Source: Antitrichia curtipendula (Eukaryota > Streptophyta > Bryopsida > Hypnales > Leucodontaceae). Taken from it: 64,000 bases of DNA. A program made the translations under genes and the position numbers. The notes under the pieces were generated by a model, which did not search any database, was not told where the DNA came from, and was given only the letters and a program-made list of their open reading frames with translations. Below are positions 30,219-57,239 of this stretch, one piece after another; position 1 is the stretch's first letter; the number at the start of each line of letters is the position of its first letter. Location: positions 5,022,001 through 5,086,000 of the forward strand of contig OX579642.1 in the NCBI GenBank assembly GCA_951230915.1, written 5' to 3'.

Positions 30219-30249
30219 GGTATTGCCATGGTTGTCATACTGTACGGAC

Positions 30250-30279
30250 GTCCGGTTCGCCCGTCCGTCCGGGACGTCC
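30250..30279 (+). repeat. 30-bp subterminal direct repeat, left copy
   Basis: GTCCGGTTCGCCCGTCC followed by GTCCGGGACGTCC recurs with one mismatch at 48088-48117 near the right end, in the same orientation. It contains the quasi-palindrome GGACGTCC-like core. It lies about 23 bp inside the left terminus. A transposase-binding or host-factor site is possible; function is not known. Confidence 0.7.
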
Positions 30280-30387
30280 GTTAGAGGTCTCACCCGCCCG
30301 ATACAGTCAACACAAAGTTGACTTTATGAAACCAAAAAAGTAGGCCACGTGGACGCCACGGGGACGCCACGTGGATTTAGGAACATG

Positions 30388-30655
30388 CAGGGCGGGGACT
30401 CCAGAGTCAGGGCGGGGACTCCATTGAGTGGGGGCAGGGACTCCATCCAGTAGGGGCGGGGACTCCAGACAGTGGGGGTGGGGACTCCAGTGAGTGGGGG
30501 CGGGGACTCCAGTGAGAGGGGGCGGGGACTCCAAAGAGTGGGGCGGGGACTCCTGTGTGGGGGCAGGGACTCCAGCGACTGGGGCGGGAACTCCAGCAAC
30601 TGGGGCGGGAACGTGAGGAGGACGGGGCGTGGACGACACGTGTCGGGGCGGGTAC
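30388..30655 (-). repeat. Left GC-rich array of the giant hAT
   Basis: About eleven units of GGGCGGGGACTCCAGTGAG type (roughly 20-24 bp). The orientation is the reverse complement of the arrays at 34498, 42376, 42837 and 47318, so the two terminal arrays face each other. Open frames across it on either strand are Pro/Ser or Gly-rich artefacts of the repeat. It also sits directly upstream of the first gene's TATA box. Confidence 0.85.
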
Positions 30656-30672
30656 TTGAGGAGCGGGGGAAC

Positions 30673-30680
30673 TATATAAA
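30673..30680 (+). promoter_or_regulatory. TATA box of the kinase-like gene
   Basis: TATATAAA follows the GC-rich array directly and precedes the first ATG by about 190 bp. A GTGAGT at 30755 and CTTGCAG at 30831-30837 would define an 83-bp 5' leader intron. Matching boxes occur at 34667 and 43107 before the other two genes. Confidence 0.65.
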
Positions 30681-30864
30681 GCGAGTCCCCGCCCTCATTT
30701 CTTTGCCAAGTCCGCGCCCTACGCCTCACACACTAGTTCGTCCCCACGGCCTATGTGAGTGAGTTTGGTGGGTGGTGGGCTTGGCCCTCATATGTGACCC
30801 GGTTTTTTTCAAATTTTCGGGGCTTTTGTGCTTGCAGAGGCCCATTGAACAATTTCTTTTCGTT

Positions 30865-32445
30865 ATGGCGGGGGAAGGGAGTGCATCGGTGGAGAAACGT
30901 CCTATGTTTGTAGATTTAGATGATGTCGGTGAGATGGTAATTCCATCCACGGACAACTTGATGGCCTCAGGTTCATCGAATCCTTCTTCATCAAGCCAAA
31001 AGAAACGCAAGAAAGCACTCAATCCCCATATGCCTCCACATGAATTCATAGTTGAAGGGAGAGCAATAGTTGTGGTGTTCTACACTCGTCGCAGTACGAC
31101 TATGTTGACCAGGGAGTATGTGGCGCTCAACGAAGAAGGGTACCACAAACTCACGAGGGACCTGCGAACGGAGCTGGAGTCAAAGTTTGAAGCATCTGAG
31201 AAATTCAACAATTTCTCCGATTATTGGTTGCACCAAGACTGGCTGGATAAACAGGTGGTTGCCTTCACAACCAATATAGTGTCAAATTGGTGTTACCACA
31301 TGGGGAAGAAAGAAGATGGTAGCGATTGGGACACACAAAATAAAGAGGTGGTTGCAAAGTTGAAAATCATTCAAAACTTTGCTCAACAATTTTCTTCATC
31401 ACGTAAGAAAAAGCAAGCACCTTGGAAAGCGACAATTGAAGACACCATAACAGCTCATTGTGTTAGTGGAACATTCAAGTGGCTTAAAAGTTCAGTAAAA
31501 GTCATCCCCATGCCGGAACAGAGTGCCGTTGGTTCATATGGGACCGTGAGGAAGGTGATGCTTACAAAACTTCAGAGCATTCCTAGTTGGATATTTTTTG
31601 CTGGGAAGAGCTTGAAAACCACAAATGAAAAGGAGAAGCGCCAAGGAATCATCAATGAGGCGGGCGGGTGTCCAGTGAGACATCCTGGCATCATTCGAAT
31701 TGCGTACCTCCACCCTAAAACGATGGAAGGCTACACGTTATAGTGGAATGGAGGCTCTCTAATTTCTTTCTTATCCAAATACAATTCGAAAGTAAGCGAA
31801 ACATTGGATGTCGATGAGATTAAGCATGAACAAGGTACAGGGTTGACAAAAGAGGAGCTTACATGGGTTGCAACTTACCGACGGAACCGAGTGAACTTGG
31901 CACTCTCTTTGCTTGTCATTGTGGGGAAATGCCACGATGCGCAGTACATGCACAACGACATCACTCCATCCAATATTTTGCTCCATTTTGATGATTATAA
32001 AGAGCACACGGTGTATATAGGGATATGTGATTGGGGACTTTCTAGCCGAGCTGTAGAGAAGGAGCCGTCAAGGTATGGCTTTCCCAACAAGGACATCCTA
32101 GTGAAGGAGAAGAGAATGCGAAGGTTTGCAGCCCCTGAATTGTTTTATATATACGGAGAGCAAGGTTCGGCAAATTCAATTGAGGCCATGCAAAAAATGC
32201 ATTTGTATTCCATGGCAGCTGATGCATATGCGGCCGGATGGATAGCAGCACAAATTTGGAAGGAAGAGTGGGACTCCAAATATTTTACAACGAAGAATCC
32301 AGAGCAGTATCAGAACCTCAGGATCAAATTGGAAAGCCTCGTAAAAGAGGATGTGAGTGAAAGGGCGTCAGTGCCAGATGTTCTCGACGCATTGAAGAAG
32401 GCCCCCCACTGTTGGACTATGCCAGAATGTTGTTATCGTATATAG
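30865..32445 (+). pseudogene. Protein-kinase-like cargo gene with one in-frame stop
   Basis: The frame runs 527 codons from ATG 30865 (MAGEGSASVEKRP) with one TAG at 31741-31743. Residues 1-190 are of unknown type, with a Lys-rich patch (KKRKKA). The rest has kinase landmarks: VGSYGTVRKV (glycine loop), FFAGKSLK (candidate ATP Lys, about residue 248), HNDITPSNILL (catalytic loop, about 363-373, HND for HRD), CDWGLS (about 388, DWG for DFG) and FAAPEL (APE). Asp and Asn of the catalytic loop and the DxG Asp are kept, so activity is possible if the stop were absent. I do not recognise the subfamily. An upstream GTG-start extension is less likely than this ATG. Capture from a host gene or a long-term cargo role are both possible. 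Confidence 0.7.
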
Positions 32446-34034
32446 TATTTAGTTTTTTTACTTTTTGTAGCTTAGCATATAGTTCAAGCATAGAAGGTAA
32501 ATCATCCTCATAGAGGACCATGTGTATGTACTTCGCAATTGCCGAACACCTCAAATATATATGAAATCGGATGCATTGTACATTCAAAATCTCATGTGAA
32601 TATATTAACCTGCTATGTCATTGTTCTTTCTCATTGCATGTTTATGAGTTCCATGAATTGATGATAAAACTTTTATAAAAATAGTGAATGCAATAGTTTG
32701 GTATAAAAATACATACACTTTATCTTTTCACTATGTCTATGTTTTACAGTTTTAGAAGTTAATGAAGCCCCCCCAAAATAAAATAAATGATCCAACAAAA
32801 AAAAGAATAACATTGAAGTACATTGGGATAATTTTAATCATGAACACAAAAAAAGGTTCAAAAAAATTAAAAATTATAAAACGAAAAAAAGAAAAGGAAA
32901 GGGAATGATGGAACCCAAAAATAAGATTAATGGCTTTGAGTTGAGGTGGAAGAACTTTAGTAAATTAGAAAAAAATAAAGTAGGGAAAGGAAAGATTGAA
33001 CGAATAAAGCTAAACTATGAATTCAAATAAAATAGTCTTCTCACTTAATGAACGAAAACAAAATAGAAAATGGAATGTTTGAACAAAAAAAAAAAAAATA
33101 ACTATGAGTTGGGATGGGAGAGTTTTAGGAATGAAGCGAACAAAAAAAGATAATCATCCAAGCCAAAAGGAATGGCATAGAGTTGGCATGGGAATTCCTT
33201 TGTTCATTAATGGAAAAAAAAATAGGAAAGGAAATCATGGAACAAATCCGAAATGGCTTGGGGTTGGTATGGAATAATTTTGTGAGAGACATAGACCCAC
33301 AAAAAATAGTGTGTCAAAGTGATTTCAACTAACACCCCAAAAAATTTACCATTTAGTTCGGATAGATTTGCGTTACCACAAAAAGTAAATGGAATTTCCT
33401 TTAGATGAAAGAGCTTGGCTAATAAAAGCAAAAAATGAAATTAATAGGAATGATCATTCAAAAATAAATGGCCTCGAGTTGGGATGGAACAATTTTGCTA
33501 ATAGCGGGAAAAAAAAATCATTCCACCTTACACAAGTGGCATTGAATTCAAATAATTTTTTTTGGTAATGATGCCCACAAAATAGGGAAGAGAATGAAAA
33601 CACCAGAAAAATTATGGCAATCACTTGAAATGGAAGTGTGCTTTAAAAATCAATGTCTAAAAGGGGAGATGGAGTGACCAAAGCTTTAGAAAAGCATACC
33701 AATTTATTTTAGGATTTTTAGTGGGGGGAATTATTTTTACGGACTTAAATAATCTAACATTAAAAGAAATGTGAATGGTGGAGTGCTTTCTTATATGGAA
33801 ATGATTTGGGTGTCACTATAAAATAATGTAACATCCAAAAAATCTATGGAATAGTGGAGTGATTTGGACATGGAAGTGGTTTGGGGGTTACAAACTTATA
33901 ATGAAGCAATTTAACACCCAAAATAAATATGGAATGGTGGATTGATTAGGATATGGAAATTATTGGGGTGTTAGAGTGATATGATCTAACATTAAATCTC
34001 AATATGGACTGCTAGAGTCACTTAGAACATGGAG
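32446..34034. repeat. AT-rich spacer with degenerate repeated phrases
   Basis: No gene is seen. Phrases such as GGAAAGGGAATGATGGAAC and GGGATGGGAGAGTTTTAGGA recur irregularly from about 32880 to 33640, and a related phrase (GAATGGTGGAGTG, ATGGAAGTGGTTTGGG) from 33770 to 33990. The same phrases fill 37480-39060 and 41190-42170, so the spacers of this element are built from one old, diverged tandem repeat. Confidence 0.6.
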
Positions 34035-34438
34035 TAATGTAGAAGGCTCAGAAATCACTCATCTAAGGGCTGGTTCGCATTTCTACAGTATTTCTTTACA
34101 TGGGAATATTTTTAAGCTCATCCTTGAAACCAAGAAAAATTGATGAGGAATGTAGCCCAATCGGTTTCATATTTTTTTAAACATTATTGAATTAATTATA
34201 AATTTTCAAAGGAGATGTGTCCTAGGTCCCTATTTATATTCTTACGTCCTTCATATTGCAATTCTAAAGAAAAATGGGGATAACAAAGACAATGATTGGC
34301 TCTTGTGATAAAGAATGTTTTTTTCCTTCCTTCCTTTTTGTCTTTTGAGGTCAATTTGAAAACTGCATCATGTCCATTCTACAACCACTTATAGGGGCAG
34401 TTCTTAATGCCAAAACTCTTTTCGAGCCTTCTACCTTA
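34035..34438. mobile_element. MITE-like repeat, copy 1 (about 404 bp)
   Basis: The ends are TAATGTAGAAGGCTC and the complement of TAAGGTAGAAGGCTC, a 15-bp inverted repeat with one mismatch. The whole unit is homologous to 48489-48901 outside the giant hAT. The boundary is compatible with a TA duplication but this is not certain. No ORF. Confidence 0.6.
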
Positions 34439-34497
34439 GGAAATGGAAATATGTCTAAACACATTAACTTCGTATATTTAAATCATGTCCGTGCCCA

Positions 34498-34660
34498 CTC
34501 TCTGGAGTCCTCGCTCCACTCTCTGGAGTCCCAGTCCCACTCTCTGGAGTCCCCGCCCCCACTGTCTGGAGTCCCCGCCCCCTCTCGGTGGAGTCCCCGC
34601 CTCCACTCGGAGGAGTCCCCGCCCCAACTCGATGGAGTCCCCGCCCTGGCGTCCCCCAAC
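34498..34660 (+). repeat. GC-rich promoter array of the RING gene
   Basis: About eight units of CTCTGGAGTCCCCGCCCCCA type. It ends a few bases before TATATAAG (34667-34674), and the RING gene ATG is 136 bp beyond the TATA. The layout copies that of the other two genes. Confidence 0.8.
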
Positions 34661-34666
34661 TGCAAC

Positions 34667-34674
34667 TATATAAG
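34667..34674 (+). promoter_or_regulatory. TATA box of the RING gene
   Basis: TATATAAG, directly after the GC-rich array. The leader downstream (CCTCATTTGTCC, then TTGTGAGCG near 34739) resembles that of the transposase gene (ATTTGTCACC, then TTGTGAGTC near 43190). Confidence 0.65.
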
Positions 34675-34802
34675 GCCGTCCCCGCCTCATTTGTCCCTGC
34701 CCTGCATACTCTCAGCCTTCCATCTCTTTATTGAGCTGGTTGTGAGCGTTGTGCGGGGTCTACTTGATTGCCACGTGGAGGATTTCGCTTTTTTCTACAA
34801 AA

Positions 34803-37100
34803 ATGGATACACCACCAAGAATGACCAAGGAAGAACGAGATAGGACCCGACCACGAGCCGGAAACAAACATCGCAAGCGACTACATGTTCTACGAAACCC
34901 TGACAAGCTTGCATTCAGGGGGTGGGAGGGCGTGCTTGAACCATGGACATATGATGACTGCGCCAATTACATTGAGTGGTGCCACATAGACAAGTTGTTC
35001 CCGGAAGAGCGACACAACTGTCACAGACGCTTCCACAAGGCAAATTTAAAATACTGCCTGGACGAAGAGTTTACAAACCGATGCATTGAGGTGTACCAAG
35101 TGTTGTATGCTCTCTCAAACGTCATACGCAATGAAGTGCAACTTTTCCTTGCACGAGGGGTCTATGCGGAGCTGAAGTTGAACAAGAGAGTGGATTGGTC
35201 AACTTTGAAGCAAATGGGAGAAAATGTCAATATTCCTACTCCAGCAAATGGATTCATTCCAAGGGGGGTAAAAAGATACCCGGAAGGTGGTCTAGGGAAA
35301 ACAAATACGCAGGTTCAAGCACCACGAAGATATGACACTGAAGACTCATCTACGGACGACGACTCAGATGGATCTCGTGTACCAGTTGTAGTCAGCCATA
35401 GAACTCAATTACTACGAGCTAAAAAGAAGAGGGCTTCGCGTCAAACTGCTGAGGTTTTACACGAAAATGTTGTGGAGGAACAGGTGCCACCTATTGACGA
35501 ACCAGTGGTAGGAATTGTGGATGTTACAGCTGCTACAAACCGAATCCAGGGTTTGTTGATTGAAGTGAATGAGAAGAATGAGGAATTGCATTCTTTGTAT
35601 AATGATGTTAACAAAATGAGAGAAGACATGCAAGAGAAGGACAACATTATCAATCAACAACAACGTGAGATGGAGGTACTTCGGCACGCTCTTGAGGCAG
35701 CAACATTGGCCAATCGTGGTCAAGATCCACGAGGGGAAGCGCAAGGGCCTTCAAATAATTCTCAAATTCCATTGGAACCTACAGAAGTTGGTGCAACAAT
35801 GGATACTCAGGATGATTCTTTGTCCTTTGGAGAATTACCCGCAAATGTAGGTGCAGCAGGGCCAGTGGACCAAAGCATCCAACTGACGGACGCGCTTGCA
35901 ATGAATTTGACATTGAAAAATCAATTGCATGCATTGATGGAGCAGTATTACCAATGGAAGCTGGCATGTGTCTTCAGTGTTGACAGGACTAGGCAAATGG
36001 TGGAGGAATTCAAAAAAATTGACCACAATTACGGCGCACACAATCAAGAGAGGGTTTTTGGTTTGACATCGTGGGCCCTGGTGGATGATCATTTCAACAT
36101 GGATGAAATGGCAACCATTGACATTGCTGGTGGACAAACAACCATCGACTGGTCCAAACATGATTGGGATTTCAAGAATGAAGTTGGCTCTGCCGTGGAC
36201 TATGAAGGCAATCCATTACTACTGTGGCCAAACCCTTCAACCTTCGTACACGATGGAACTACATGTCCCATTTGCCTTAATCCATTTGGCCCGGAAGGTG
36301 GAATGCACTTAGGCACGTGTGAACATTTGTACCACCCATTCTGCCTAATTAGCTTGATGATTGTCCGCCGACGTTGTTCACTATGCAAGGCTCCTTTCCA
36401 TAAGCGCTTGTATGAGTTGTTTGGATTAGTTCCCTACATGCCACCGCATTGGGAATTCAATGCTGAAAATGCCCCTGATCATTTTCAGAAGTGGGGAACA
36501 GACTTGGTGTGGAGTTGAAAATTGAACATCCATTCGTTGGGCAAACAACAACTTTGTACCGAATGGGGTTGGAAAAAAAATCCGGCTCAAATTGTGGAGG
36601 TGTGCCACCACTTGGTTCCATTGAAGGACAACTTTAGCCAAGGACGACGGAATTTCTTCTTCCAATGCTTCAATGGGCATTGGAATGAGGCACAAGAATA
36701 CTTCCAATTTGGACCTCATCCTCTTGGATGGTTGTGGGGCGTTGATGGAGTTCGCATTACTGACGACCAGGGGATGCGGAGGGGGGAAGACATTGACATG
36801 CCAGACCCTGCTGAACTTGCACAACTATCGGAGTCAGAGTGGCGAGAAACCTTTCGAAATGATGGGATGGACTTCTTGTTGGAACAACATAGCCCGGGAA
36901 CTCTCCAATGTCCTCAAAGCCTCAAGCAATCACAAATATTGAAGGCTCTTTTAGAGGAAGACGAACCAGCGAGGAGAACTCGATCCGCAGTTCGTAGACT
37001 TCGTTTGGGAACAGATGAAGACCTTCCAATTCGCGCCGGGACACATGACAATGAGGCTGGACCAAGTGGCAGTGCAAGTAGTCCAATGAACATGGACTAA
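34803..37100 (+). pseudogene. Coiled-coil RING-finger cargo gene with one in-frame TGA
   Basis: From ATG 34803 (MDTPPRMTKEERDRTR) the frame is open for 766 codons except for TGA 36516-36518 (codon 572), after which it continues in frame to TAA at 37098-37100. A basic N-terminus leads to a region of unknown fold, an acidic patch (DTEDSSTDDDSD), a coiled coil at about residues 246-300, and a RING-type zinc motif at about 488-530: CPICL, then CEHLYHPFC and CSLC, giving a C3H2C3-like ligand set. RING proteins of this kind are usually E3 ubiquitin ligases; that is family knowledge, not shown here. The C-terminus is Arg-rich and acidic (RRTRSAVRRLRLG). I do not recognise a named family. The 36522-37100 piece is the same reading frame and not a separate gene. 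Confidence 0.7.
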
Positions 37101-39299
37101 GTATAATTTTGAGTATAGTTTTGAGTGTTTTAGCTAGTGAGCTTAGGTTTTCTTAGAAGACTTATTTTCCTAGCACTATAATATTATATAGGCTTATATA
37201 CTTTCCTACTTTGTATTACACTATGCATATGAAATATATTTGATTTTATTTTGAATGGTTTTGCCCAAAGTGACTTCATTTATTTTTTGCACGTACTCAT
37301 TTGAAATTTGAATGGACTTGTGGACTTCATACATATTAAAATTATTTATACCATGAAATGAAATGTCATTGAATTGGAGTACAATTCATTCCCAATTTCC
37401 ACTCAATGAATAGAAGTAGGGAAGGTTGGACGGACCACGAAGGCACGAAGTGGCCCGAACTTGAAATTAAGGGAAAAAACGCTTTTCAAATGTCATTAAT
37501 GCCTTGATGGAAATATATATATGCAAAGGAATGATGGAACTCCCCCCCAAAAGGGATTGAAATAGGTAAAAATTCACTTGCAAAATAGGCAAAGGAATGA
37601 TAGAGAAAAGCAAAAAATAGGGAAGTAATTACCTACTTAAAAATGAATGGCATTTAGTTGGGATAGAATAACGTGACAAATGAAGCCCAAAAAAATTAGA
37701 ATGGGTTTAGAGAATACAAAATTTAAATGGCCTTTGATTGAGAATTTTAGATGGAGCAATTTTGCTAATGAAGCACAAAAAAAGTAGGAAGGTAAACTGA
37801 ATGCCAAAAATTGGCATTGAGTTGGAGAAAAATTAGGAAGAGAATAATAATGCCATTTAGTTTTTATATAACTTGGGATGTAACAATTTTGCTAATCAAT
37901 CTAAAAAAAATTGGAAAAGAAATGAATCCAAAAAATTAGGAAAGGGAAAGAATCCCCCCCAAAAAGGAAAGGGAATGAATCCCAAGAAACATTTGATAAG
38001 GGAATGAATCCCAAAGAAATAGGAAAGGGAATGATATACAAAAAATAAAGGGCATTGGCCATTGGGATGGCATGGGATAATGTTGCAAATGAAGTTCAAA
38101 TAAAATTAGGAAGTAAATGATATACCCAAAAAAAAGGCATCTATTTGGGATACAATAATCTTGCAAATCACTAACAAAAAATAAGAAGGGCTTAGGTAAT
38201 ACAAAAATTAAATTATTTAAATGGCCTTCGGGCTCATGATGGAATGGAGCCATTTTGGCATTTTGCTAATGAATTTTACAAAGATTAGGAAGGGAAAGAA
38301 ATGTAAGTGCATTTTAAATGTTGCTAATAAAAACAAACAAATGTGAAAGAAATATGAAACAAATATTGTTTCACATTACCTCTTATGTCATATGAAAAAT
38401 GGGAAGTGAATGGATAGACTTCAATTTCGTACCATAAAGAAAAAAATTTAGGGAATCCCTTAGGATGGAATAATTGTGCTAATAAATAAAACAAATAGGA
38501 AAGGAAATAAGCAAAAAAAAAATGCTTACTGTTGGATTAAACAATTTTAGGAATTAATGAAGAAAAAAAATAGGAAAGGAAGTGAGTTGGATGAATAAAT
38601 ATTGGCATGAAGTTCACATAAAAGAGTTCTATGAATTAATGAAGAAAAAAATGGTGTCTTTGAGTTGGGGACTTGGGGTAGGAGAACTTCAGGAAATAAG
38701 CAAAAACAAAATAGAGATGGAAATGATTCAACAAAAAAAGATGAATTGAAAATTGGGATGGAAGATTGTTAGGAACAAAATAGAAAAAGGAATGATTCAA
38801 CTAAACCAAAAAAATTAAATATAATTTGGGATGGGAGAGTCTTACGAATGAAGCATCTACAGAAAAAGAAGACAAAATGATCCAACCCAAAAAGAATGCC
38901 ATACAATTGACAAGTTGGGATGGGAGACCTGTGCTAATTCCTGGAAAAAAATAGGAAAGGGAATGATGCCCCCCAAAAAAGGACAGTGACTTAGAATGGA
39001 AGACTTTTAGGAATGAAGCCCGAAAAATTAGGAAAGGAAATGATGGAATTAAAAATTGCAGTTGCATATTGAAGGCCTAGAATTTTAAATAACTCCCCTA
39101 CTATTTCTTTCATTTCAAATACAATGCAGTTTTATCCTTTTATATAGTACACTACATTTCAAAAATATTGATTAAACATTTACTAAATATTTCCTCAAAG
39201 TGTCCTAAACATTTCCTAAATCAAAGAATTTACATTGTTTTTTACAACCTAAATGATATGTTTGTTCAAAGTAGTTTGAAGTGTTAGAAGAAGTAAGGA
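37101..39299. repeat. AT-rich spacer, degenerate tandem repeat
   Basis: No gene is seen. From about 37480 to 39060 irregular units of roughly 60-90 bp recur, with ATTGGGATGGAATAATTTTGC, AGGAAAGGGAATGAATCC and GAAGCCCAAAAAAA phrases. They are the same phrases as at 32880-33640 and 41190-42170. Confidence 0.6.
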
Positions 39300-39845
39300 A
39301 AAACATTTCTCACCACAACAAAGGAGACATCCTCTTCCATGGATTTTCTTCCAAATCTTAGGCCATGGACCTCTTTATTCGGCATCTTGCTTTCATTGTC
39401 TTGTCAGAATCCAAAATAAGTTGTTGAGGCTAAATTAATGCTTCCCACTCTCCAAGGAAAAGGGCGGTTCAAGGATGTCGCATTTCAAAGTCTTGCTTCC
39501 TGTGCTGGACCAGTGTTTTTTTTTTCATTTTCCATAAAGTGGCGAAGTGGCGATATTAAATGTTACGGTGGTGCTCCAAGTTTCAACATTCATCCAAGTA
39601 CTGTATAGAAAATGTGATACTACGTATCTATAATTCTATTTTCATTCACAATGTGGCGATTTCATCCAAGATTTTTCTTGAACTTGAAGTTTTTTGGCGA
39701 TTTCATCCAAAAATTTACTAAAAATTTCCTATAGGCTTGGTGCTAGGTCAAAAATTTTGGTGCAATTTTGCACCAAATCGCCAGAAAAAAAAACACTGTG
39801 CTGGACGAGTTAGTCCCCGCCCTGGAGTCCCCGCCCTATTGTACA
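39300..39845 (+). repeat. Duplicated promoter-like module, upstream copy
   Basis: About 39300-39510 plus 39799-39840 is a copy of 42165-42415: both run from CATGGACCTCTTTATTCGGC-like text through GCTTCCTG(T/G)GCTGGAC to a GTCCCCGCCCTGGAGTCCCC array, which here has only two units. It is split by the 288-bp hAT MITE. No gene follows it, so it may be a defunct promoter or a duplicated segment. Confidence 0.65.
39511..39798. mobile_element. hAT-type MITE (288 bp)
   Basis: It begins CAGTGTTTTTTTTTTC and ends GAAAAAAAAACACTG. TGCTGGAC flanks it exactly on both sides (39503-39510 and 39799-39806). The paralogous segment at about 42362-42370 has the uninterrupted text GGGCTGGACGAG, an empty site. 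The 8-bp duplication and CAGTG ends define a hAT MITE. Confidence 0.88.
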
Positions 39846-40318
39846 ATACCCTCCCAAAAGTCTTGCAACCCCATTATGAAGTCCTTCAAATTTTCCTTTT
39901 TAACTCCATTTTAAGAACATACTATGAAAAGTATCCTATTAAATCTATTGCTTTATGGAACCTTCACCAACATATGAAATTTCAATGTCTAAAAATAGAA
40001 ACTCCATTTTTGGTGAATTATTTTATTTATTTTTCACGATATTACATAATAATTAATTAGAAAATGTGTATGATGATTTTTTAAGATCTGATTGCATATA
40101 TATTTAGGAAACATCATTGTTCACATCTTTCATATTACAAAGATGCACACTATGTAGGTAAATTTTTTGTCTATTTGGCTTTAATGTATTTTGCAATTTC
40201 CTTTCATACATGTTCAAGGCAAAGGTCATGTATTCAAAAACATTTGAATAAATATTGTCAAATAGGATATCATTAGGAAGCTATGGTATTGTAGAAGCCT
40301 ACTATATCATGAATTTTA

Positions 40319-41078
40319 CAGTATGTCTCGCTGACTAGCAACGACTTTGCAACAAAGTGTTACACCTACTACCATCAAGTACTACCACCTTGAGCTGCTA
40401 TCTTAGCTTTGATTTGGTTTGGCATCGTAGAAATTGACTTTTGAATACTTTCTTGAGGTATATCCTTGCATGCCATATTCACTAATGTCCACATTTAGTC
40501 ATTGTTGTAGGATCTACATCTTTTTTGTACTCGATCTTTGACTTGCTTCTATAAATTCTCTATAGGATTAAGGTCAAAAGAATTTGGTGGCCACTCAATG
40601 AATTTTACATTATGTCATGGTGCAAAGTTGACCAACATTGCTTAGAACTTCACAAGTTTGCTTATAGAACTTCTAGCAACATCATATATACAATATTTTA
40701 GACAAACATTAATTTTTTCTCACAAAACTTCTAGGCTATGTCTACAAGCAACAATCACTAGAAGCATGCATGCACTAATGTTGATCCTCTCAACCGCAAA
40801 ACCGGTTGAAATCCACTACCTATGATCTTCTACAATGAAATTTTCAAATTAGCATTGTCCCTTTAAATTTAGCTTAGTGTTTTCAAAATCAACCACCTTT
40901 CACAAAGAAAGATTTTTCTAAGAAGTGGAATGAGTTACAACAAGGTGCATGACTCACCTAGTTTGGAGCAAAAAATCTCAATCAAATATCTAAATTTACC
41001 TACCATGAGTTTGATTTGTAATCAAACTACTCGGATGAGAACTAGACATGGGGTTGCAAGAGTTCTTGGAGGGTACTG
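40319..41078 (-). mobile_element. Decayed Tc1/mariner element
   Basis: The region encodes on the minus strand a Tc1-type transposase remnant and is bounded by TA-CAGTA at the left and TACTG-TA at the right. The inverted ends are weakly matched beyond CAGTA, so exact limits are uncertain. Confidence 0.5.
40365..40640 (-). pseudogene. Tc1-like transposase C-terminal remnant
   Basis: Reading the minus strand, WPPNSFDLNPIENL is the conserved block around the third catalytic residue, and the last residues resemble the end of the intact copy (AAQGGST, compare AQGGNTRW at 51170-51193). Several stops occur. It is related to the Tc1-like element at 49700-51405. Confidence 0.65.
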
Positions 41079-41189
41079 TACATTCAATTAAAAAAGAGTC
41101 CCTTGTGCCAAGTATTCCAAAAAATGAATCCCTTTACATGAAGAACAAACTATAACTTGTAACTTCTCATTGTTCTAAGACAAGAATGA

Positions 41190-42164
41190 AATAAAAAATC
41201 AATAGGAATATGAATAATGGATTAAAAAACAAATGGCATTGAGTTCGGAACTTCGGATGGAAGAATTTGTTTATGGATGAAGCAAAAGTGATAAGAAAGG
41301 GAATGATTCAACAAATCAAGAATGGCAATGATTTAGGATGGAAGAGTTTTTGGAACGAAGCAAAGAACAAATATAGAAAAGGGAATGACTAAATAAAAAA
41401 AGATTGGCATAGACTTGGAATAAAAGAGTTTAGGAATTAAAGAAGGAAAAAAATAGGAACATATATAAAAATAGAGAATCGAATGATTCTACATATAACT
41501 ATTGGCATGCAATTGGAATTAAAGAGTTTTAGGAATTAATGAAGCTAAACAAAATAGGAAAGGGAATGGTGGAACAAAAATAAAATGGCATTGAGTTGAA
41601 AACAAAGTGCTTAAGGAGTTCATGTAGCCAAAAAAACTAAGGGGCATTGAGGTGGAATGGAAGAATTTTAGAAATGAAGCAGAAACAAAAACAAAAAAAA
41701 AGAGAATGATGGAACAAATAAATTATGGCTTTGAATTGAGGTGGTAGAACTTCAAGAAATAAGCAAAAATGAAGTAGGAAAGGGCATGATTCAACAAACA
41801 AAGATCGGCATGGTGTTGGAAGAATACTACAAAAGAGACTTGCTAAGTTTTGAAGCAAAACAAATTAGAAAAGGAGATCATTCAACAAAACAACCCAAAA
41901 AATATGAATTGGGATGGGAGAGTTTTAGGAATGATCCAAATAAATAGGGAAAGGAATGATGGAACCAAAAATGAACATTTGGCTTTGATTTGAGATGGAA
42001 GAGTTTTAGGAACAAAATAGAAAAAAGAATGATTCAACCAAAAGAAAAAAAATTAGAATAAGTTGGAATGGGAGAGTTCTAGGAATGAAGCCCAAAAAAA
42101 AGGAGAGAGAAAGATCCGACCTCGAATGAATGGCACAAACTTGGGATAGGAGAGTTTTCCTAAT
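41190..42164. repeat. Degenerate tandem repeat spacer
   Basis: GGGAATGATTCAAC, GGATGGAAGAGTTTTAGGA and AGAAAAGGGAATGA recur irregularly, as at 32880 and 37480. Small open frames here follow the repeat and are not called. Confidence 0.6.
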
Positions 42165-42375
42165 ACCTTTCATCACAACGAAGGGGACATGCTCTTCCAT
42201 GGAGTTTCTTCCAAATCTTAGGCCGTGGAGCTCTTTATTCGGCATCTTGCTTTCATTGTCTTGTCAGAATTTGTTGAGGCTAAAATTAATGCTTCCCCCG
42301 CTCTAAGGAAAAGGCGGTTGAAGGATGTCAAGCACAAGCGCATTTCAAAGTCATGCTTCCTGGGCTGGACGAGTA

Positions 42376-42640
42376 CGTCCCCGCCCTGGAGTCCCCGCCC
42401 TGCCTTCGAGTCCCTGCCCTGGAGTCCCCGCCCTGCCTTCGAGTCCCCGCCCTGGAGTCCGCGCCCTGCCTTCGAGTCCCCGCCCTAGAGTCCCCGCCCT
42501 GCCTTCAAGTCCGCGCCCTGACTTCGAGTTCGCGCCCTGACTTTGAGTCCATTCCATGGAGTCTGAGATTGAGCTGCGCTCTCTCAAGTTCCTCCATTTG
42601 TGTGAATTGTCCGCCCCGGAGTCCGCGCCCTGCGTCCGCG
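42376..42640 (+). repeat. GC-rich array upstream of the transposase, copy 1
   Basis: About twelve units of CCCTGGAGTCCCCGCCCTGCCTTCGAGT type with drift to GTCCGCGCCC at the right. It follows the duplicated 42165-42375 module. Frames through it encode repeated SPRPGVPALPSS-type peptides and are artefacts. Confidence 0.85.
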
Positions 42641-42836
42641 CCCTAGCACAATCCATTCAGCGAAAACATTGGGGAGTGAAAGCCATTTTCTTTGCCCACG
42701 AATTTGGGGGCGTGACGACATTTAATGTTCCCCTTTTTCCATGAAAAGGAGGGACACAATCTTCCCAGACCATTAAGGATGGCGAAGGTCAACGTACTTT
42801 TCGATGCATCCCCGTGAGCACACCTGCATTTCTGTA

Positions 42837-43092
42837 CTGGAGTCGCGCCCTGGAGTCCGCGCGTTCGAGTCCCCGCCCTGGAGTCTCCGCCCTGTCTTCG
42901 AGTCCCCGCCCTGGAGTCCCCGCCCTGTCTTCGAGTCCCCGCCCTGGAGTCCCCGCCCTGCCTTCGAGTCCCCGCCCTGGAGTCCCCGCCCTGCCTTCGA
43001 GTCCCCGCCCTAGAGTCCCCGCCCTGACTTAGAGTCCCTGCCCTGACTTCAAGTCCGCGCCCTATACTTTGGTGACGAAGACGTCCGCGCCC
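42837..43092 (+). repeat. GC-rich array upstream of the transposase, copy 2
   Basis: About a dozen units of GAGTCCCCGCCCTGGAGTCC type, ending in GTCCGCGCCCCCTAAACC, then the TATA box at 43107. It is the nearest array to the hAT gene. Confidence 0.85.
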
Positions 43093-43106
43093 CCTAAACC
43101 GCTAAG

Positions 43107-43115
43107 TATATAAAG
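43107..43115 (+). promoter_or_regulatory. TATA box of the hAT transposase
   Basis: TATATAAAG, placed 15 bp after the array and about 260 bp before ATG 43375. It has the same arrangement as 30673 and 34667. Confidence 0.65.
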
Positions 43116-43374
43116 GAAAGGAAGACCCAGCATTCCCCACATTTGTCACCTGGCCTCTATTTCTTGGACTTCAATTCATTTTGAGCTCCTTGTGAGTCTA
43201 CTTGGGTGGCAGATGGCCCTAGTTTGCTGCTGAGGTGATGTCAAAATCAGTTCAAGCAATGGAGTAGCGCTAACTGCTGTTACTGATACTGTGTTTGGTA
43301 TATCTTGGATCCTTTTAACTTCAATATAAAGGAGGAGGAAGACGGAAGAAAATATCCTTGGATCGTTGAACGCA

Positions 43375-46300
43375 ATGGCAAGTCAAAGGAAGCAGACCAA
43401 GGAATGGGAGCCGTGGCTTCAGTTTACGGAGAATGGGGTTAAAGTGACTTGTGTTTTCTGTGCTGGGACCTTCAGTTACAAACGTGAGCGTGCTTTTGCA
43501 CACTTTGGATATGGCTCCAAATCGGAGAGGTCAATTTGTCGAAGTATGCCTCGTCCAGTGCGACATAGATTTGCCAATTGTGCAGGATTTGTCCCGCTAC
43601 GAATCGATGTCGGGGACATGTATGAAGGAGAACCAATTCAAAGTGCGCCATCTAGAGCAACTCCTCTTGCAAGTTCAAGTGAAGCCACTAAAAATGAGGT
43701 GACGGGTGGGATCAATGGTGGAAGAGCGGAAGAAGGGGCAAACGTTTCAGAAGGAATTGATATTCTACAAATGTCAAATAGTCTTGCTGGATCCAATTCT
43801 ACGAGATCTGGATCATTACGTCAACAACGCATGGCGGACGCATTCAACATTGCAAAGAGGAAGGAGTTGGATGAGAAGTGGGCAAGTTTTTTCTATGAAG
43901 CGAATGTGCCATTTAATGTGGCAAGGCATCCAGCCTTCATTGAAGCGGTGAGGGCAACCTCAGTGGCGAAGTTTGAATACAGTCCACCTTCTTACCATCA
44001 ATTTAGGACTAATTTGATTGAACCGAGGAGGTTGCAAATTGAGAAGCAGATTCAAGAGAAGGTTGGATTTGCTGTCAAGCACTACGGGGTGTCGATATGC
44101 ACCGATGGTTGGGATGATGTCAATCGGAGACCCCTCATGAATGTGATGATGTCATGCCCCACAGGTGATGTATTTTTGGAGTCAATTGATACTACCTTGC
44201 AAAAGAAAACCATGCGCTACATATCGGACCAAATGAACGTGTACATTGAGAAGGTGGGTCCCAAATATGTAACACAAGTGTGCACAGATAATGCAGCAAA
44301 CATGCTTGGCGCATTGAAGGACATCACTAACACATACCCGCATATTTTTGCGCAAGGCTGCATGGCACATGCACTAGATCTCATGTTGGAAGACTGGGCC
44401 AAAGTCCAAGAATTTTCCGATTTAATTGCCAGGGCAAAAAGATTGTGCCAATACATTCGAAACCATCATGCGACCATGTCGGTTTTCCGCGAGTTGAGTC
44501 CGAATTTGCAACTCGTAGTGCCTAGCGAAACCCGCTTTGCTTGTAATTTCCTCATGTTGCAGCGATTGGTGAAACTCAGAGGAGTCTTGGAGCGGTTGAA
44601 TAACCACCCACGTGTTCTAAATTTCTTTGATACCCTAAGGAATGAACAAAATGGACCGCAAGCAGCTACCGCTTCACGTAATGTCAAAAGAACCATTGAA
44701 GATGTGGCTTTCTGGCAACGGTGTGTGAATTACGTGTACATGACTGAAGACGTATTGAAGGCTTTGCGTGTGTTTGATGGACGAGAACCAGCCATGGGTC
44801 GGGCATGGCTCGTAATGCACAATTTGCGAGGGCATGTGTTTTCTTTAAGAGAACCACCTTTCAGCTTACGTGATGACATAGTAGTCATTTTGGAAGAATC
44901 TTTCAGTGCAAGATGGCACATGGTTTTTGAAGATACACACTACGCAGCGGCCCTTTTGAATCCATACCTCTTGGATAACGTGGCGCTCAGGGAAGATCGA
45001 ACTGCCCTACGTGCATTGTACAGAGTCATCCGCAACATGATGGGGAACCTGGGTGTCAATTTTGATGATGTGATGGCGGAATTAACATAATTCGAGGAGG
45101 GTATTGGACCCTACAGTCCAGCTGAGACACCCAACATCCGTGCGACACAAATGCTTCCCCACCAATGGTGGCACAGGGTTGGAGATCGGGCTCTTTCGAA
45201 AATTGCCGTGCGTATTTTATCCCTCACGTGTTCCGCCAGCTCCTGTGAAAGGAATTGGAGTATGTATTCCTTTGTTCACAATAAGATCCGAAATCGATTG
45301 GCCCCTGAAAAGGCAGAGTCCCTGGTATATATTTATACCAATAGCCGTGTACTTCGCCAACGACCAAGAGCCGATCCAGTTCGTTGGTATGATGCGAATA
45401 TGTACTCAGAGGATTCTGATCCAGATGCCCTTGGACCGATCCTGGTGAATGAACGCAATCGGGAATTTGACGCACTGCAATCAGAGGAAGAAGAAGAGGT
45501 TGATGGGGAAGCCAACCGAGGAGCTCAAGAGTATCCGGCAAACCCAGATCTTTGGAGGCAAGGAGCCGATCACCTCGAAGAAGCGTGGAACTACTATGGA
45601 GATGCTGATGATGGAGAGGAGGAACTCCTTCGTGGTCGTAGGGGACCACCACCACCAAATCCTTGTCGTAGTCTTTCACCTCCACTTCTTCAAAATGAAG
45701 GGGTTGTAGAAGTACCAGCTTTGTCGTCTTCTTTGGAGACCGACAATCCAAATGACGATAACGTTGATGATGGTATTTCCCACAACAACAACGACGATGA
45801 TGACAACCTCCCTCCAGGAAATGGCGGCGGAAATGGCGGCGGAAATGGCGGTGGAAATGGAAATGGTGGTGGACATGAAAATGGCGAGAGAAACAGGGGG
45901 AGGAATGCGAATCCAAATCATGGAGGATCTTCTCACAATCGAGATGGCAATACACGCCCTACGGGAGTGGAACCAGCAACTCGTAACATTAGAGCTCTAG
46001 AAAGATAGCATGATAGAAACGTTAGAAATGCAAGAGTGCCACGCCCTTTTGCAAGAAATCAACCGGCTGGTAACATGAGAAGGCCTTTTGATCCAGAGCA
46101 TGTGGACCATGATGATGTTTTTGCTTTTGTAGAACCACCCGAAGACATTGCCCCTGTACCGGCTCCAGTTGCGGGCCATCCTGCTATTTCTGAACATGGT
46201 ACACAAGTGCCACATTCCCTAGATCCATCTTCAGAAACAATTTCCAATGCCATCCAAAGACCTTCTCAAGAAGGATTAGGCTCAGTGGGAAATGTTGATT

Positions 46301-46899
46301 TGACTCTGCAAAGAGTTTCACGTGGTAGACCACCTGTGGCCCCTCGGCCCTCCGTTCATCATGAAGTAGGTCAATATCAACAAGCCCGTGGACGGACAAG
46401 AGGCCATGGTAGAGCTGTAGGCCGTGGAGGGAGTACAGGCCGAGGACGAACAGAAGATCTGCATATTGGAGAAGCATCATCGCCAAGGCATGTTAATCGT
46501 TCACCCCTCAGAATTGGAGCAAGAGATCCAAATAGGGTGATAGAACCGTTCCTAAGTACATACGTACCAGGACCTAGCCTGTCAACTCCGGCATTTGTTG
46601 TTCGAACAATTCCAGGTGGGCCTACTATAAATTCTGATGCAGAAGACCCCAACACACAACGACACAAGAGGTTGAAGCGCAAACGTACTCATGGCCAAAC
46701 AACTATAGAGCTTCGAAATGAAAACTCGGAAGTTGAGGAACATTGGACCACCGACAGTGGTGAAGCAGAAGATGAATATGACAGCAATGAAGATGCCAAT
46801 GACGAGGCACCAGAGGATGATGATGTTGTTGTTCGAGATGCTAATGCAGCGAATCCAAGTGCCCAAGAAGTTCGTAGGTCGAGTCGTTTGAATAATTGA
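43375..46899 (+). pseudogene. hAT transposase with long low-complexity tail, two in-frame stops
   Basis: The frame from ATG 43375 (MASQRKQTKEWEPW) spans 1,175 codons with only TAA 45088-45090 and TAG 46006-46008 inside. Near the N-terminus CVFC...H may be a BED-like zinc finger. The core (about residues 200-560) has ICTDGWDDVNRRP (DUF659-type, first catalytic Asp) and VCTDNAANM (second Asp). Downstream, RILSLTCSASSCERNWS is the hAT C-terminal block with the catalytic Glu. Family transposases excise and reinsert elements with 8-bp TSDs, fitting the flanks. The tail is Gly/Asn-rich (GGGNGGGNGGGN), then RG-rich, then acidic, and ends RRSSRLNN; it is long for this family. The stops make the present copy probably inactive. 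Confidence 0.85.
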
Positions 46900-47317
46900 G
46901 GTTATTGAGTTGCATCGATGGTAGATCTCGGATCTTTAAGAGTTGAGGACAATTGTAGCAATTGGAAGAAATATAGACGAGAAGCCAAAAAAATGTTTTG
47001 GATAACCTATGAGAAACAGAGAAAGTGAGCGTATTTTGGAAGTATAGATTCATTGTATTGATATTGTACTTTGCAATGCATGAATTTTATAAACTATTTT
47101 GGTTATCACAAACATTGCAGCCTACCTGTATTTTTTTTGTGTATTTTGTATTTGATGGGCCTCCTGGAAACCTTGGTGGGGAAATCATGTAAAATACATT
47201 CCAGTTACTGGTTCTTTTTAATGCAGTGGGGTCTCCTATTTGTTCCAAATTTTTTTTATACATACATATATATATATATATATTGTAGAACACATAAATT
47301 TAATCCACCATTGCCCG
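46900..47317. other. Transposase 3' region and spacer
   Basis: AT-rich 3' sequence after the transposase gene with no further gene. A short AT microsatellite (about 47266-47284) and a run of T near 47130 are seen. Confidence 0.45.
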
Positions 47318-47995
47318 TCCGCGCCCTCCCACTCACGTTCAGGTCCGCGCCGTACCTGAAGGAGTCCGCGCCCTAACGCGCTGAAGTCCGCGCCCTGCCT
47401 GTCACAGTGAAGTCCCCGCCCTACTTGAAGGAGTCCGCGCCCTGACGCGCTGAAGTCTGCGCCCTGACTGAAGGAGTCCGCGCCCTGACTGAAGGAGTCC
47501 GCACCCTGACTGTCACAGTGAAGTCCCTGCCCTTCTTGAAGGAGTCCGCGCCCTGACGCGCTGAAGTCCGCGCCCTGACTGAAGGAGTCCGCGCCTTGAC
47601 TGTCACACAGAAGTCCCCGCCCTGCTTCGAGGAGTCCGCGCCCTGCTTGAAGGAGTCCGCGCCCTGCTTGAAGGAGTCCGCGCCCTGACGCTCACACTGA
47701 AGTCCCCGCCTTGATTCGATGAGTCCGCGCCCTGAAGCGCTGAAGTCCGCGCCCTGAATGAAGGAGTCCGCGCCCTGACGCTCACACTGATGTCCCCGCC
47801 CTGATTCGATGAGTCCGCGCCCTGAAGCGCTGAAGTCCGCGCCCTGAATGAAGGAGTCCGCGCCCTGACGCTCACACTGATGTCCCCGCCTTGCTTGAAG
47901 GAGTCCGCGCCCTCACGCGCCGAAGTCCGCGCCCTGACTGAAGAAGTCCCCGCCCTAACGTCCGTGCCCTGACTGAAGAAGTCCTCGCCCCTGGA
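47318..47995 (+). repeat. Right GC-rich array of the giant hAT
   Basis: Roughly thirty units of GAAGGAGTCCGCGCCCTGACT type, about 20-21 bp each, with GTCCCCGCCC interspersed. It is the longest of the arrays and lies just inside the right terminus. Minus-strand open frames with repeated VRARTPS peptides come from the repeat. Confidence 0.88.
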
Positions 47996-48087
47996 TCCAG
48001 CTGTCCAAGCTGACGTGTCATTGAAAAAAATTCCACAACTTTGAGAAATTGAGGCCGTCCAGTTGGTCCGGACCGTCCGTCCGTCCG

Positions 48088-48117
48088 GTCCGGTTTGCCC
48101 GTCCGTCCGGGACGTCC
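48088..48117 (+). repeat. 30-bp subterminal direct repeat, right copy
   Basis: Matches 30250-30279 with one difference in the same orientation, about 33 bp inside the right terminus. Confidence 0.7.
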
Positions 48118-48158
48118 AATGACCCTAACTCGCCCGTTATGACAACCCTGAGTATTGC

Positions 48159-48488: not shown

Positions 48489-48901
48489 TAAGGTAAGAGG
48501 CTCAAAAATGGCACATCTAAGGGCTGTTCCGCCTTTTTCGTGTATTTCAATGGAAGGAAATAATTTTAGCTCAATTTTCAGACAAAGAGAAATAGATGAG
48601 GAATCTAACCCAAGTGGTTTCATATTTTTCCAAGCGTTTTTGAATTACTTATGAATTTTCAAACGAGTTGGGTCATAGGTCCCTATATATGACCCTAGGT
48701 CTTTTATAAACGGTTCACTTGCAATTCTAAAGGAAGATGGGGAAAGCAAAGGAAATGATTGACTCTTGCAATTGATAATGCTTTTTTTCTTGATTATTCA
48801 ATAACTATACATGTCAATTTCAGAACCAACTCATGTCCATTTTACAGCCATTTATAAGGTCTGTTCTTAATGCTCGTTCCATTTTAGAGCCTCTTACCTT
48901 A
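48489..48901. mobile_element. MITE-like repeat, copy 2 (413 bp)
   Basis: The ends TAAGGTAAGAGGCTC and its near complement form an inverted repeat. It is homologous throughout to 34035-34438. The longest shared text includes TCAGAGGAA-like AATAGATGAGGAATCTAACCC and GGTTTCATATTTTT. No ORF of significance. Confidence 0.6.
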
Positions 48902-49027: not shown

Positions 49028-49284
49028 ACACCGCTCTAGTCACTACAAGAGAAAGGGGTGTTTTAAGTAGTGTCCTAGACATCACGTCTTTTAAGTAACA
49101 TCTTTTAAGTAACGTCTTTTAAGTAACGTCTTTTAAGTAAGGTTTTAAGTAAAAATTTACTAAAAAGACTGTCTTTTTAGTAAATTTTTACTTAAAACCT
49201 TACTTAAAAGACGTTACTTAAAAGACGTGATGTCTAGGACACTACTTAAAACACCCCTTTCTCTTGTAGTGACTAGAGCGGTGT
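49028..49284. mobile_element. CACTA-type fold-back MITE in an extended palindrome
   Basis: The core 49041-49271 begins CACTACAAGAGAAAGGGG and ends with its complement (...CTCTTGTAGTG), the CACTA signature; most of it is a near-perfect inverted repeat built from TTTTAAGTAACGTC units. The palindrome goes on outside the core for 13 bp (ACACCGCTCTAGT at 49028-49040, ACTAGAGCGGTGT at 49272-49284), so no ordinary 3-bp duplication is visible. Confidence 0.8.
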
Positions 49285-49699: not shown

Positions 49700-51405
49700 C
49701 AGTGGGGTCCAAAAATAAATCGAATTTTTGTTGCGGGAGCTTCTGGTTTCACTTAAAGCCTCCTGTTCTCAAAAATCTAGCTCCCTAAATTGGACACCTT
49801 TCTTCACCAAACAAATTGCAACATGTTAAGAAGTGAGTGGTTACTAATGTCCACCAATGAATCACAGAAAGTTGTCACAAATTAGAGAATATGGATAGAT
49901 TTAGTAAATTTTGTTGTCAAGAGCTTAGAAAAGGATCATTGACTTTTGAGCTCCTTGAGCCACTTGTGATGCTTCCATGGCAATTGTTCATTGCTCTTGA
50001 TAGTCTTTAAAGATGTAGACATAGACTAGAACACCAAACTGAACTACTACTGAGGCATTGTGACCATAGTTGCCTCTTGGAGTTGACGGTACGAAATTGT
50101 GAAGCTGCTGGAGCCGTGAAGTTGTTGGAGTTGTACTCAGGTTTGCATACTTCAATTTATGTGAGGATTGAGCATTATGAAGTATTGGATTCTTGATACT
50201 GAAGAGAAGAATCGGATTGTAGGGATGCATGAGGGTGGGATGAAATGTAAGGATATTGGAGAAGAATTGAATGTTCCATGTTCAACCATTTCCACTATTT
50301 TGACAAATTGGAAGGTCCGTGGAAGTGTAGAGTCCTTGAAAAGTCAATGTGATAGGCATCAAAAAATATATGAGCATGGGGTTCGTATATTGGTACGTTC
50401 AGTTCTAGATGATAGAAAACAATCACTTTCAGAAATATCAGACTACTTGAATGTATGTCGTAATACAACACGGACGTACTTGTGTGAAATGGACTTTAGG
50501 AGTTGCATAGCACCAAAGAAGCCCTACCTTAGTAATAAGCACAAAGCAGATAGGCTTGCATTCGCCCGAGCTCATGCAAGCTAGGATTTTGAGGATTGGT
50601 GTAAAGTAATTTGGTTAGATGAGTCGTCATTTGAACTAGGTAAGAATTCAAGGCAAATTAGAGTATGGCGGAAGTCACACAAAAAAAATGCACGGGATTG
50701 CATTGCTCCATCTTTCAAATCAGGGCATACTTTAGTGATGGTTTGGGGGGCATTTAGTGGCTTCGATACATGCCCACTAGTTCCTATACCTTCAAATATG
50801 AGAACAACAAGCGATTTTGTGAATCTTGTTTATGAAGGAACATTCAGTGGATTCTATTTTATGCATGATGACCGCGAGCAAATGATACTTATGGAAGACG
50901 GTGCTCCAGTCCACCCCAGCTTACTTCCATTACAATGGAGACAAGCTCATGGGGTGAAGAAGCTAAATTGGCCTGCAAACTCTCCAGACTTGAACCCCAT
51001 AGAGAATGTATGGAAGATTGTCAAAGATTTGTTACGCCATCATGGTAGACCTAGAAATAAGGAAGAAATGGTGCAAAACATTCAATCTGTGTGGGATACA
51101 ATACCTTTAGAGCAACTCCATACCTTCATTAGAAGTATGCCTGATAGAATGCAAGCTGTTATTTTAGCACAAGGTGGTAACACTAGATGGTAGCTACTTT
51201 GTTATGATATTTTAAACTATTGTATTGTACTGTAATTTTGTAATGTCAAATTAGTTTATTGTAAAGTACATTCTACCACCTTTCCAACGCACTTTACGGC
51301 TTCTAAATTGATGAATTTTTGAGCACACAGGAGCTCTTCAAAGTTGCAGCATTTCTTTTGATTCACCCTCCCAGCAAAAATTCGATTTATTTTTGGACCC
51401 CACTG
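49700..51405 (+). mobile_element. Tc1-like DD34E transposon, nearly intact (1.7 kb)
   Basis: The element starts CAGTGGGGTCCAAAAATAAA and ends with the exact complement; the inverted repeat runs perfectly through CGAATTTTTG (about 31 bp). TA flanks it on both sides (49698-49699 and 51406-51407). It carries one transposase gene on the + strand. Identical termini and one nonsense codon suggest a young copy. Tc1-like DD34E elements are typical of animals and fungi; the plant members of this superfamily that I know are DD39D. Confidence 0.9.
50168..51193 (+). pseudogene. Tc1-like transposase with a single in-frame TAG
   Basis: The frame of 342 codons is open apart from TAG 50582-50584 (codon 139). 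Residues 1-110 form the paired helix-turn-helix DNA-binding part (IVGMHEGGMKCKDIGEEL; SEISDYLNVCRNTTRTYL). The catalytic core has WLDESSF (first Asp), LMEDGAPVH (second Asp) and WPANSPDLNPIENVW (Glu), with 34 residues between the second Asp and the Glu, hence DD34E. All three catalytic residues are present. The family cuts and pastes at TA. The end AQGGNTRW is followed by TAG. A related decayed copy lies at 40319-41078. Confidence 0.88.
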
Positions 51406-55276: not shown

Positions 55277-55280
55277 TTAA

Positions 55281-57190: not shown

Positions 57191-57239
57191 TAAAAGAGAT
57201 TATCTTTTTGTATTATTAATGTTTGTGCTCTTGAGCTCC

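Follow-up and report, generated by a model that had tools for sequence, protein, structure and literature searches.

Background

Ordinary hAT transposons are a few kilobases long and carry the transposase gene alone between their two ends, and subterminal repeats are a feature of the known members. Here we describe a 17.9-kb element of Antitrichia curtipendula that spans positions 30227 to 48150 of a 64,000-nucleotide stretch of contig OX579642.1 (positions 5,022,001 to 5,086,000; assembly GCA_951230915.1). We call the whole stretch the window, and coordinates refer to it. The element shares with Ac, Tam3 and their relatives an 8-bp target-site duplication (TSD), a short terminal inverted repeat (TIR) and the hAT dimerisation region, and it has subterminal repeats too. 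It differs from Ac and Tam3 in its length of 15-18 kb across the family and in its three genes, which include a protein kinase and a RING-H2 gene with promoters of their own. Size, gene number and the constrained kinase and RING genes set it apart from the known hATs. It very probably represents a family of cut-and-paste hAT transposons, about 15 or 17.7 kb long, that encode three proteins of their own, namely a transposase of the hAT type, a protein kinase and a RING-H2 protein.

Pack-TYPE elements capture fragments of host genes, whereas the genes of this element are full and constrained (dN/dS, the ratio of nonsynonymous to synonymous substitution rates, of 0.10-0.20) and are open in many copies. 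The VANDAL elements have a transposase of the MULE type, whereas the transposase described here matches the hAT and DUF659 models. In the excerpts available of two reports on VANDAL and VANC in Arabidopsis (PMC5735166, PMC10398659), an accessory gene belongs to the element and the targets of VANC are often tandem repeats in non-coding parts, differing between related elements; our element likewise has a short motif arrayed in tandem in its non-coding parts. VANC is described there as a sequence-specific anti-silencing protein, whereas no protein of this kind is recognised among the products of our three genes, and no VANC name occurs among their Pfam matches (no VANC sequence or model was compared).

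Fungal hAT7 and other DNA transposons that carry TET/JBP genes are also similar, according to the excerpted text of PMC12730594, since one group is hAT by its transposase and the accessory enzyme gene is thought to counter silencing. That enzyme is a TET/JBP dioxygenase rather than a kinase and a RING protein, and the TSD of hAT7 measures 7 bp. IS3EU of rust fungi, covered by the same excerpts (PMC12730594), has a kinase gene near its transposase; the transposase, however, is of another superfamily, and the kinase is an alpha-kinase and not of the Pkinase family. The word 'ubiquitin' is absent from these excerpts. ToxhAT, renamed ToxTA, is a 14-kb gene-carrying fungal element that was once called hAT; in the portion of PMC12506042 at hand, it is reassigned to Tc1/mariner for its TA duplication and is a single copy, likely non-autonomous. 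Starships, described in part in that portion (PMC12506042), are large gene-carrying elements too, but their captain is a tyrosine recombinase (DUF3435), whereas the first gene here is a kinase. No DUF3435 match was found in the frames of the three genes (the scan covered these frames and not the spacers). The words hAT and kinase are absent from the accessible part of the review PMC6431247. Among titles and abstract openings on hATs and transposons with such genes, bryophytes, and giant or cargo elements, we found no hAT with kinase and RING genes, most subscription literature being outside the scope of this search.

Paired termini and copies in the genome

The element starts with CATGGTTGTCATA (30227..30239, + strand) and ends with TATGACAACCCTG (48138..48150, - strand; CAGGGTTGTCATA when read inward). 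These TIRs are 13 bp long, which falls within the range of 5-27 bp given for the hAT superfamily in the available part of PMC12506042, and they differ by one T/G mismatch. The flanking sequences GGTATTGC (30219..30226) and AGTATTGC (48151..48158, on the outer flank of the right end) agree at seven of eight positions, and a subterminal 28-bp repeat (30252..30279, + strand) has a second copy at 48090-48117 with one mismatch. To assess these signals, we scanned the window for 13-bp inverted ends that start with CA and have at most one mismatch, flanked by an 8-bp repeat with at most one mismatch. Three pairs qualified, whereas 30 first-order Markov sequences yielded 0.03 on average: the 17.9-kb element, a nested 288-bp element (39511-39798) and a pair in AT-rich tandem repeats. 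Both the inverted termini and the imperfect 8-bp duplication that the initial annotation had reported are present, and in combination they are far above the Markov expectation.

We then searched the window's own assembly (400 Mb, 303 contigs) for the exact 16-mers of the two ends, of which the left one starts at 30230. They occur 93 and 91 times, respectively. For 68 of the left ends, a right end follows on the same strand no more than 60 kb downstream. Paired ends lie a median of 17,721 bp apart; 63 of the 68 pairs measure 14-23 kb, with extremes of 795 bp and 35.2 kb. Two length classes are detectable, one of 14.5-15.3 kb (12 pairs) and one of 17.3-18.5 kb (43 pairs), and the window copy (17,924 bp, + strand) is one of the long class of this family, hereafter family A. 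Pairs on opposite strands or in the wrong order are absent from the genome at distances up to 25 kb. Under exact matching, 25 left and 23 right ends are unpaired. The TSDs were read at both junctions of 36 pairs: 29 are identical over 8 bp and three, the window copy included, have one mismatch. In a control with swapped flanks (16 copies), 1.2% agree at up to two mismatches.

Searches of the genome with the three proteins score only the best candidates (82 of 1442 for the kinase, 76 of 2410 for RING and 76 of 1613 for the transposase), so that all copy numbers are lower bounds. At 97-100% identity, there are at least 82 kinase, 76 RING and 76 transposase copies, those of the window included. 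Among those listed, 51 of the 82 kinase, 46 of the 76 RING and 45 of the 76 transposase copies lie inside the 68 pairs, all on the strand of the element; the medians of their distance to the left end are 642, 4,623 and 12,945 bp, respectively. At least 25 of the 68 pairs hold all three genes among the matches listed, and two hold none of those listed; as only the best candidates were scored, a gene missing from a pair is no sign that it is truly absent. The distance between the RING and transposase genes falls mainly into two classes, of about 5.6 and 8.3 kb, which match the two lengths of the element.

These data bear on whether the locus could be a chance composite, in which hAT ends and a transposase surround unrelated kinase and RING genes between two partial elements. 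Nested insertions and a duplicated spacer are indeed present, and the window copy is damaged. Such an origin would nonetheless have to account for 68 paired copies of near-constant length, with the same gene order and strand and with 8-bp duplications, and this multicopy collinearity refutes it, leaving it next to no credit. The check proposed with the initial annotation, to look for other copies with the same ends, gene order and perfect TSDs, thus came out in its favour, and the 17.9-kb transposon stands as one unit whose two ends are shared across a multicopy family. Ends, 8-bp duplications and the many occupied sites show that the family was mobile in the past, and collinearity and open frames in many copies are shown as well.

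The mismatches at the ends of the window copy differ in nature. In loci fetched by gene or position, and not by the T/G base, the left terminus reads CAT in each of the 27 kinase loci, out of 30 inspected, that yielded a left end; the right terminus reads CAGGG in 13 of 16 loci, CACGG in one, and was not found in two. The T/G mismatch of the TIRs is mostly characteristic of the family rather than a sign of decay in the window copy, while the single TSD mismatch is particular to that copy.

The three genes

All three genes between the ends lie on the + strand, each with one long frame and no apparent intron in the coding part. The protein kinase gene (30865..32442, 526 codons) has a Pkinase match in Pfam (2.2e-9, with stops read through). 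The RING-H2 gene follows (34803..37097, 765 codons), and its best solved-structure match is RING finger protein 24 (1e-5). The transposase gene (43375..46896, 1,174 codons) encodes a DUF659 region, a hAT dimerisation region and a long low-complexity tail; with stops read through, it matches DUF659 (1e-36) and Dimer_Tnp_hAT (PF05699, 1.6e-8), both above the Pfam cut-offs. By eye, it has candidate D, D, C..H and E motifs for the DDE catalytic residues, at what we take to be their usual positions. A solved-structure search with the transposase found no relative, nor did the plasmids searched, and viral contigs yielded no confirmed relative of RING or transposase. By its ends, its 8-bp duplications and its transposase, the element belongs to the hAT superfamily. 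Rfam and tRNA scans gave no match.

The initial annotation had listed a full-length transposase frame and two further long frames, with kinase and RING landmarks. The three frames are there, but in the window copy each is interrupted by one or two in-frame stops: at 31741 in the kinase gene, at 36516 in the RING gene, and at 45088 and 46006 in the transposase gene. Because all three genes are affected, the window copy is a damaged family member that is unlikely to be autonomous as such. A recoded genetic code was considered and rejected, since TAG, TGA and TAA all occur among these stops and many other copies have none. Indeed, 41 of the 82 listed kinase copies are stop-free in the matched part, 25 of the 76 listed RING copies have a frame that reaches 784 amino acids or more with no stop in the match, and 30 of the 76 listed transposase copies reach at least 1,000 amino acids with no stop in the match. 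Pairwise identity among aligned copies, a non-random set chosen by score or open frame, is 98.3-100% for the kinase (30 copies), 98.3-99.3% for RING (13) and 98.3-99.2% for the transposase (10).

Diverged families and purifying selection

A diverged element lies in the left flank of the copy at 32.354 Mb of contig C3, with a transposase piece of 79% protein identity and, further along, RING (64%) and kinase (66%) genes. A genome search with this diverged RING protein listed 74 matches. Among them are 28 at 92% identity or more, which form family B; one fragment at 87% and one match at 83%; 19 at 72-77%, all with stops in the match, which form family C; and 25 family-A copies at 64-66%. In a second family-B copy (L126), a terminus starting CAGGGTTGTTATACTGGAC aligns to the left end of the window copy (71% over 133 bp), followed by a GC-rich array, a kinase gene on the - strand and a RING gene on the + strand downstream of a family-A-like TATATAAGGCC promoter. 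A related left end, a kinase and a RING gene thus lie within 5.6 kb in this copy.

To measure the constraint on the three genes, we compared the window copy with family B. The dN/dS ratio of the kinase is 0.13 over codons 1-248 (bootstrap 0.07-0.22; copy L125) and 0.10 over 370 codons of 151-525 (0.06-0.15; L126), that of RING is 0.20 (0.14-0.26; 576 codons) and 0.18 (0.09-0.27; 212 codons), and that of the transposase is 0.17 (0.11-0.26; 246 codons). All ratios are far below 1, although dS is high (0.8-1.8) and the exact values are therefore rough. By this codon comparison, purifying selection is shown on kinase, RING and transposase between families A and B. By eye, the B kinase keeps what we take to be the catalytic-loop HND and the D of the DWG-like motif, reading DWR where the window kinase reads DWG, and the B RING protein retains all eight of the cysteines and histidines that we take to form the motif.

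As judged from sequence, the kinase and RING genes are core genes of the element and not passengers or recent cargo, because they are multicopy and collinear, recur in the diverged family B, have dN/dS ratios of 0.10-0.20 and lie downstream of the array and TATA box of the element. The suggestion of a giant hAT with accessory signalling and ubiquitin genes is hence supported, except that conservation under purifying selection argues against a recent acquisition. A host kinase and a host RING gene might instead be carried along unneeded by the element, perhaps to the benefit of the host as in Starships, and their domain types are those of ordinary cell proteins. We consider this improbable: the RING gene is multicopy in family B as well (28 listed matches at 92% or more), and the element's array precedes both genes, on which constraint is as strong as on the transposase.

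The distribution of the families over the contigs is uneven. Contig C5, of about 35-47 Mb as judged from the size order of contigs, has none of the 93 left ends, none of the 91 right ends and none of the 82, 76 and 76 listed family-A genes, whereas it holds four of the 28 family-B and ten of the 19 family-C RING genes among the matches listed. C5 is possibly a sex chromosome, or a chromosome that was isolated during the family-A burst. In addition, pairs of copies in opposite orientation, with equal or near-equal scores and 20-90 kb apart, occur on C1 (21.57/21.59 Mb), C4 (12.78/12.80 Mb) and C8 (3.91/4.00 Mb); these are either inverted segmental duplications or assembly artefacts.

Shared arrays and promoters

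GC-rich arrays occur near both ends of the element and before the TATATAA box of each gene. The left array (30390..30596, + strand) is made of 22-bp units with GGGCGGGGACTCC and lies upstream of the kinase TATA box (30673). A second array, inverted relative to the left one (34494..34646, - strand), precedes the TATA box of the RING gene (34667), further arrays (42377..43063, - strand) precede that of the transposase gene (43107), and a right subterminal array occupies 47317..47957 (- strand). Counted on both strands, the element contains 57 occurrences of the unit GTCCCCGCCC/GGGCGGGGAC and its variant GTCCGCGCCC, and the other 46 kb of the window none.

The arrays are retained in other copies. 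Among 30 kinase loci, the left end was found in 27, and these have 2-11 exact GGGCGGGGAC motifs in the left array; 26 of the 27 also have TATATAAA. Of 24 right-end loci, 20 yielded the end (18 copies, as two are included twice), and their right arrays have 11-29 motifs. Upstream of the transposase gene, 6-12 motifs are present in nine of ten loci, with no result for the tenth, and TATATAAA lies at -267/-268 in eight of the nine. The core promoters of the RING gene, known in family A from the window copy alone, and of the transposase gene align beyond the TATA box, with a score of 30.5 against a mean of 9.5; only 4 of 1,000 random window segments reach this score. All three genes are thus shown to share one promoter design, in which a GC-rich array is followed by a TATA box.

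Points against a three-gene family

Several observations weigh against a single family in which all three genes are kept for the element. Four of the 36 pairs read have no duplication, their flanks differing at 4-6 bases. The best Pfam matches of the RING protein (7.4e-5 and 1.2e-4) are under Pfam's own cut-offs, and the structures predicted for kinase and RING without alignments are too poor to use, with a pLDDT (predicted local distance difference test) of 39 and 33. The kinase core promoter is only weakly like the other two, the score being reached by 22 and 29 of 1,000 random segments. Within the family, the ratio of nonsynonymous to synonymous singletons is 1.55 for the kinase, 2.04 for RING and 2.32 for the transposase, set against a rough neutral guess of 2.6-2.7; these ratios prove little, because the copies were chosen by score or open frame.

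Family B also departs from the arrangement in family A. Its kinase is inverted, and kinase and RING lie head to head in both B copies read. In both, the GC-rich region between the two genes contains a run of 200 N (L125 8199-8398, L126 4975-5174), which is an assembly gap or a masked stretch. A single locus links transposase and RING in B, and 4.8 kb of unread sequence separates the pieces there. Lastly, the only transposase piece from B contains a stop, and the kinase of L126 is interrupted by frame breaks and stops.

Possible roles of the kinase and RING proteins

In the mechanism that we propose, the hAT transposase would cut at the TIRs after binding the terminal arrays, leaving 8-bp staggered joints. 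The transposase or another protein of the element would bind the GC-rich unit GGGCGGGGAC. Since this unit lies near both ends and before every gene, one signal likely sets both excision and co-expression, and the shared arrays would make the three genes a regulon.

The kinase and RING proteins would help the element in trans, most likely by counteracting silencing by the host or by adjusting transposase abundance. Accessory proteins encoded by other elements offer precedents for such help: VANC of VANDAL elements, the TET/JBP dioxygenase of fungal DNA transposons including hAT7, and the alpha-kinase gene of rust IS3EU elements. We put at about even the chance that the two proteins are accessory factors favouring transposition; their most likely action would be to mark a silencing factor of the host through phosphorylation and then ubiquitylation, or else to control the transposase level. 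More tentative is a specific form of this model, in which the kinase and E3 ligase pair would target a silencing protein of the host for degradation and, like the transposase, would be activated through the GC-rich array, as a counter-defence kept in at least two diverged families. To a similar, limited degree it is conceivable that the two proteins act on the element only: the kinase would phosphorylate the transposase and RING would limit its amount, a form of copy-number control with no host target. Joint control of this kind is allowed by the shared upstream array.

Nested insertions and surroundings of the element

The RING and transposase genes are separated by a purine-rich non-coding spacer (37101..42376). 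Within it, the segment at 39310-39514 is repeated at 42170-42374, and since the two segments (at 39.3 and 42.2 kb of the window) lie 2.86 kb from each other with 83% identity, and the distance classes between RING and transposase genes match the two element lengths, a local duplication of the spacer probably gave rise to the long class and separates elements of 14.9 kb from those of 17.7 kb. The spacer also hosts a hAT-like miniature inverted-repeat transposable element (MITE) of 288 bp (39511..39798), which was recovered in the pair scan with TIR CAGTGTTTTTTTT and a perfect TSD TGCTGGAC, and a decayed Tc1-like insertion (39843..41077, - strand, limits set by eye; 43% identity by tblastn at 40614-40372). 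Between the kinase and RING genes lies a MITE-like repeat (34035..34438) with inverted ends recognised by eye, which has a relative of 73% identity outside the element (48489-48901). This similarity was considered as evidence against one unit and rejected, because the repeat has inverted ends of its own.

Further repeats and frames lie elsewhere in the window. To the left of the element, a chromodomain-bearing Ty3/gypsy remnant lies in several frames at 3329-7303, and a Ty3/gypsy element of about 11 kb at 8577-19514, with long terminal repeat pieces (8577-8844 and 9383-9823 versus 18811-19514) that are 96-98% alike. Part of the latter (16498-16789) consists of tandem units with CTCCAGTGAGC, which resemble the unit of the left array of the hAT. 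To the right, a long inverted repeat of about 230 bp (49041-49271), likely a MITE, has a relative at 54183-54414, and a broken Tc1-like transposase lies at 50168-51193, its decayed relative being the one nested in the hAT at 40372-40614. A hAT-like terminus, CAAGGTTGTCTTATCGGACGG, occurs at 51714 and is followed by GGGCGACCGCGGGT units; it was dropped as a second candidate terminus, as its 17-mer has only three matches in the genome, that of the window included. Stretches of degenerate, AT-rich tandem repeats with a unit of about 105 bp occur in either orientation within 52273-60850, and two frames of 336 and 132 amino acids lie at 62182-63825, the longer without a Pfam match.

Conclusions

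If our interpretation is correct, hAT elements of 15-18 kb are able to maintain a stable multi-gene programme, in which kinase and RING genes appear to be kept under selection as strong as that on the transposase of a high-copy element. The family would allow the size limit of cut-and-paste transposition to be tested in a natural setting and would give direct access to the ways in which transposons cope with control by the host. Kinase and RING genes that are annotated as host families in such genomes may in fact be transposon genes.

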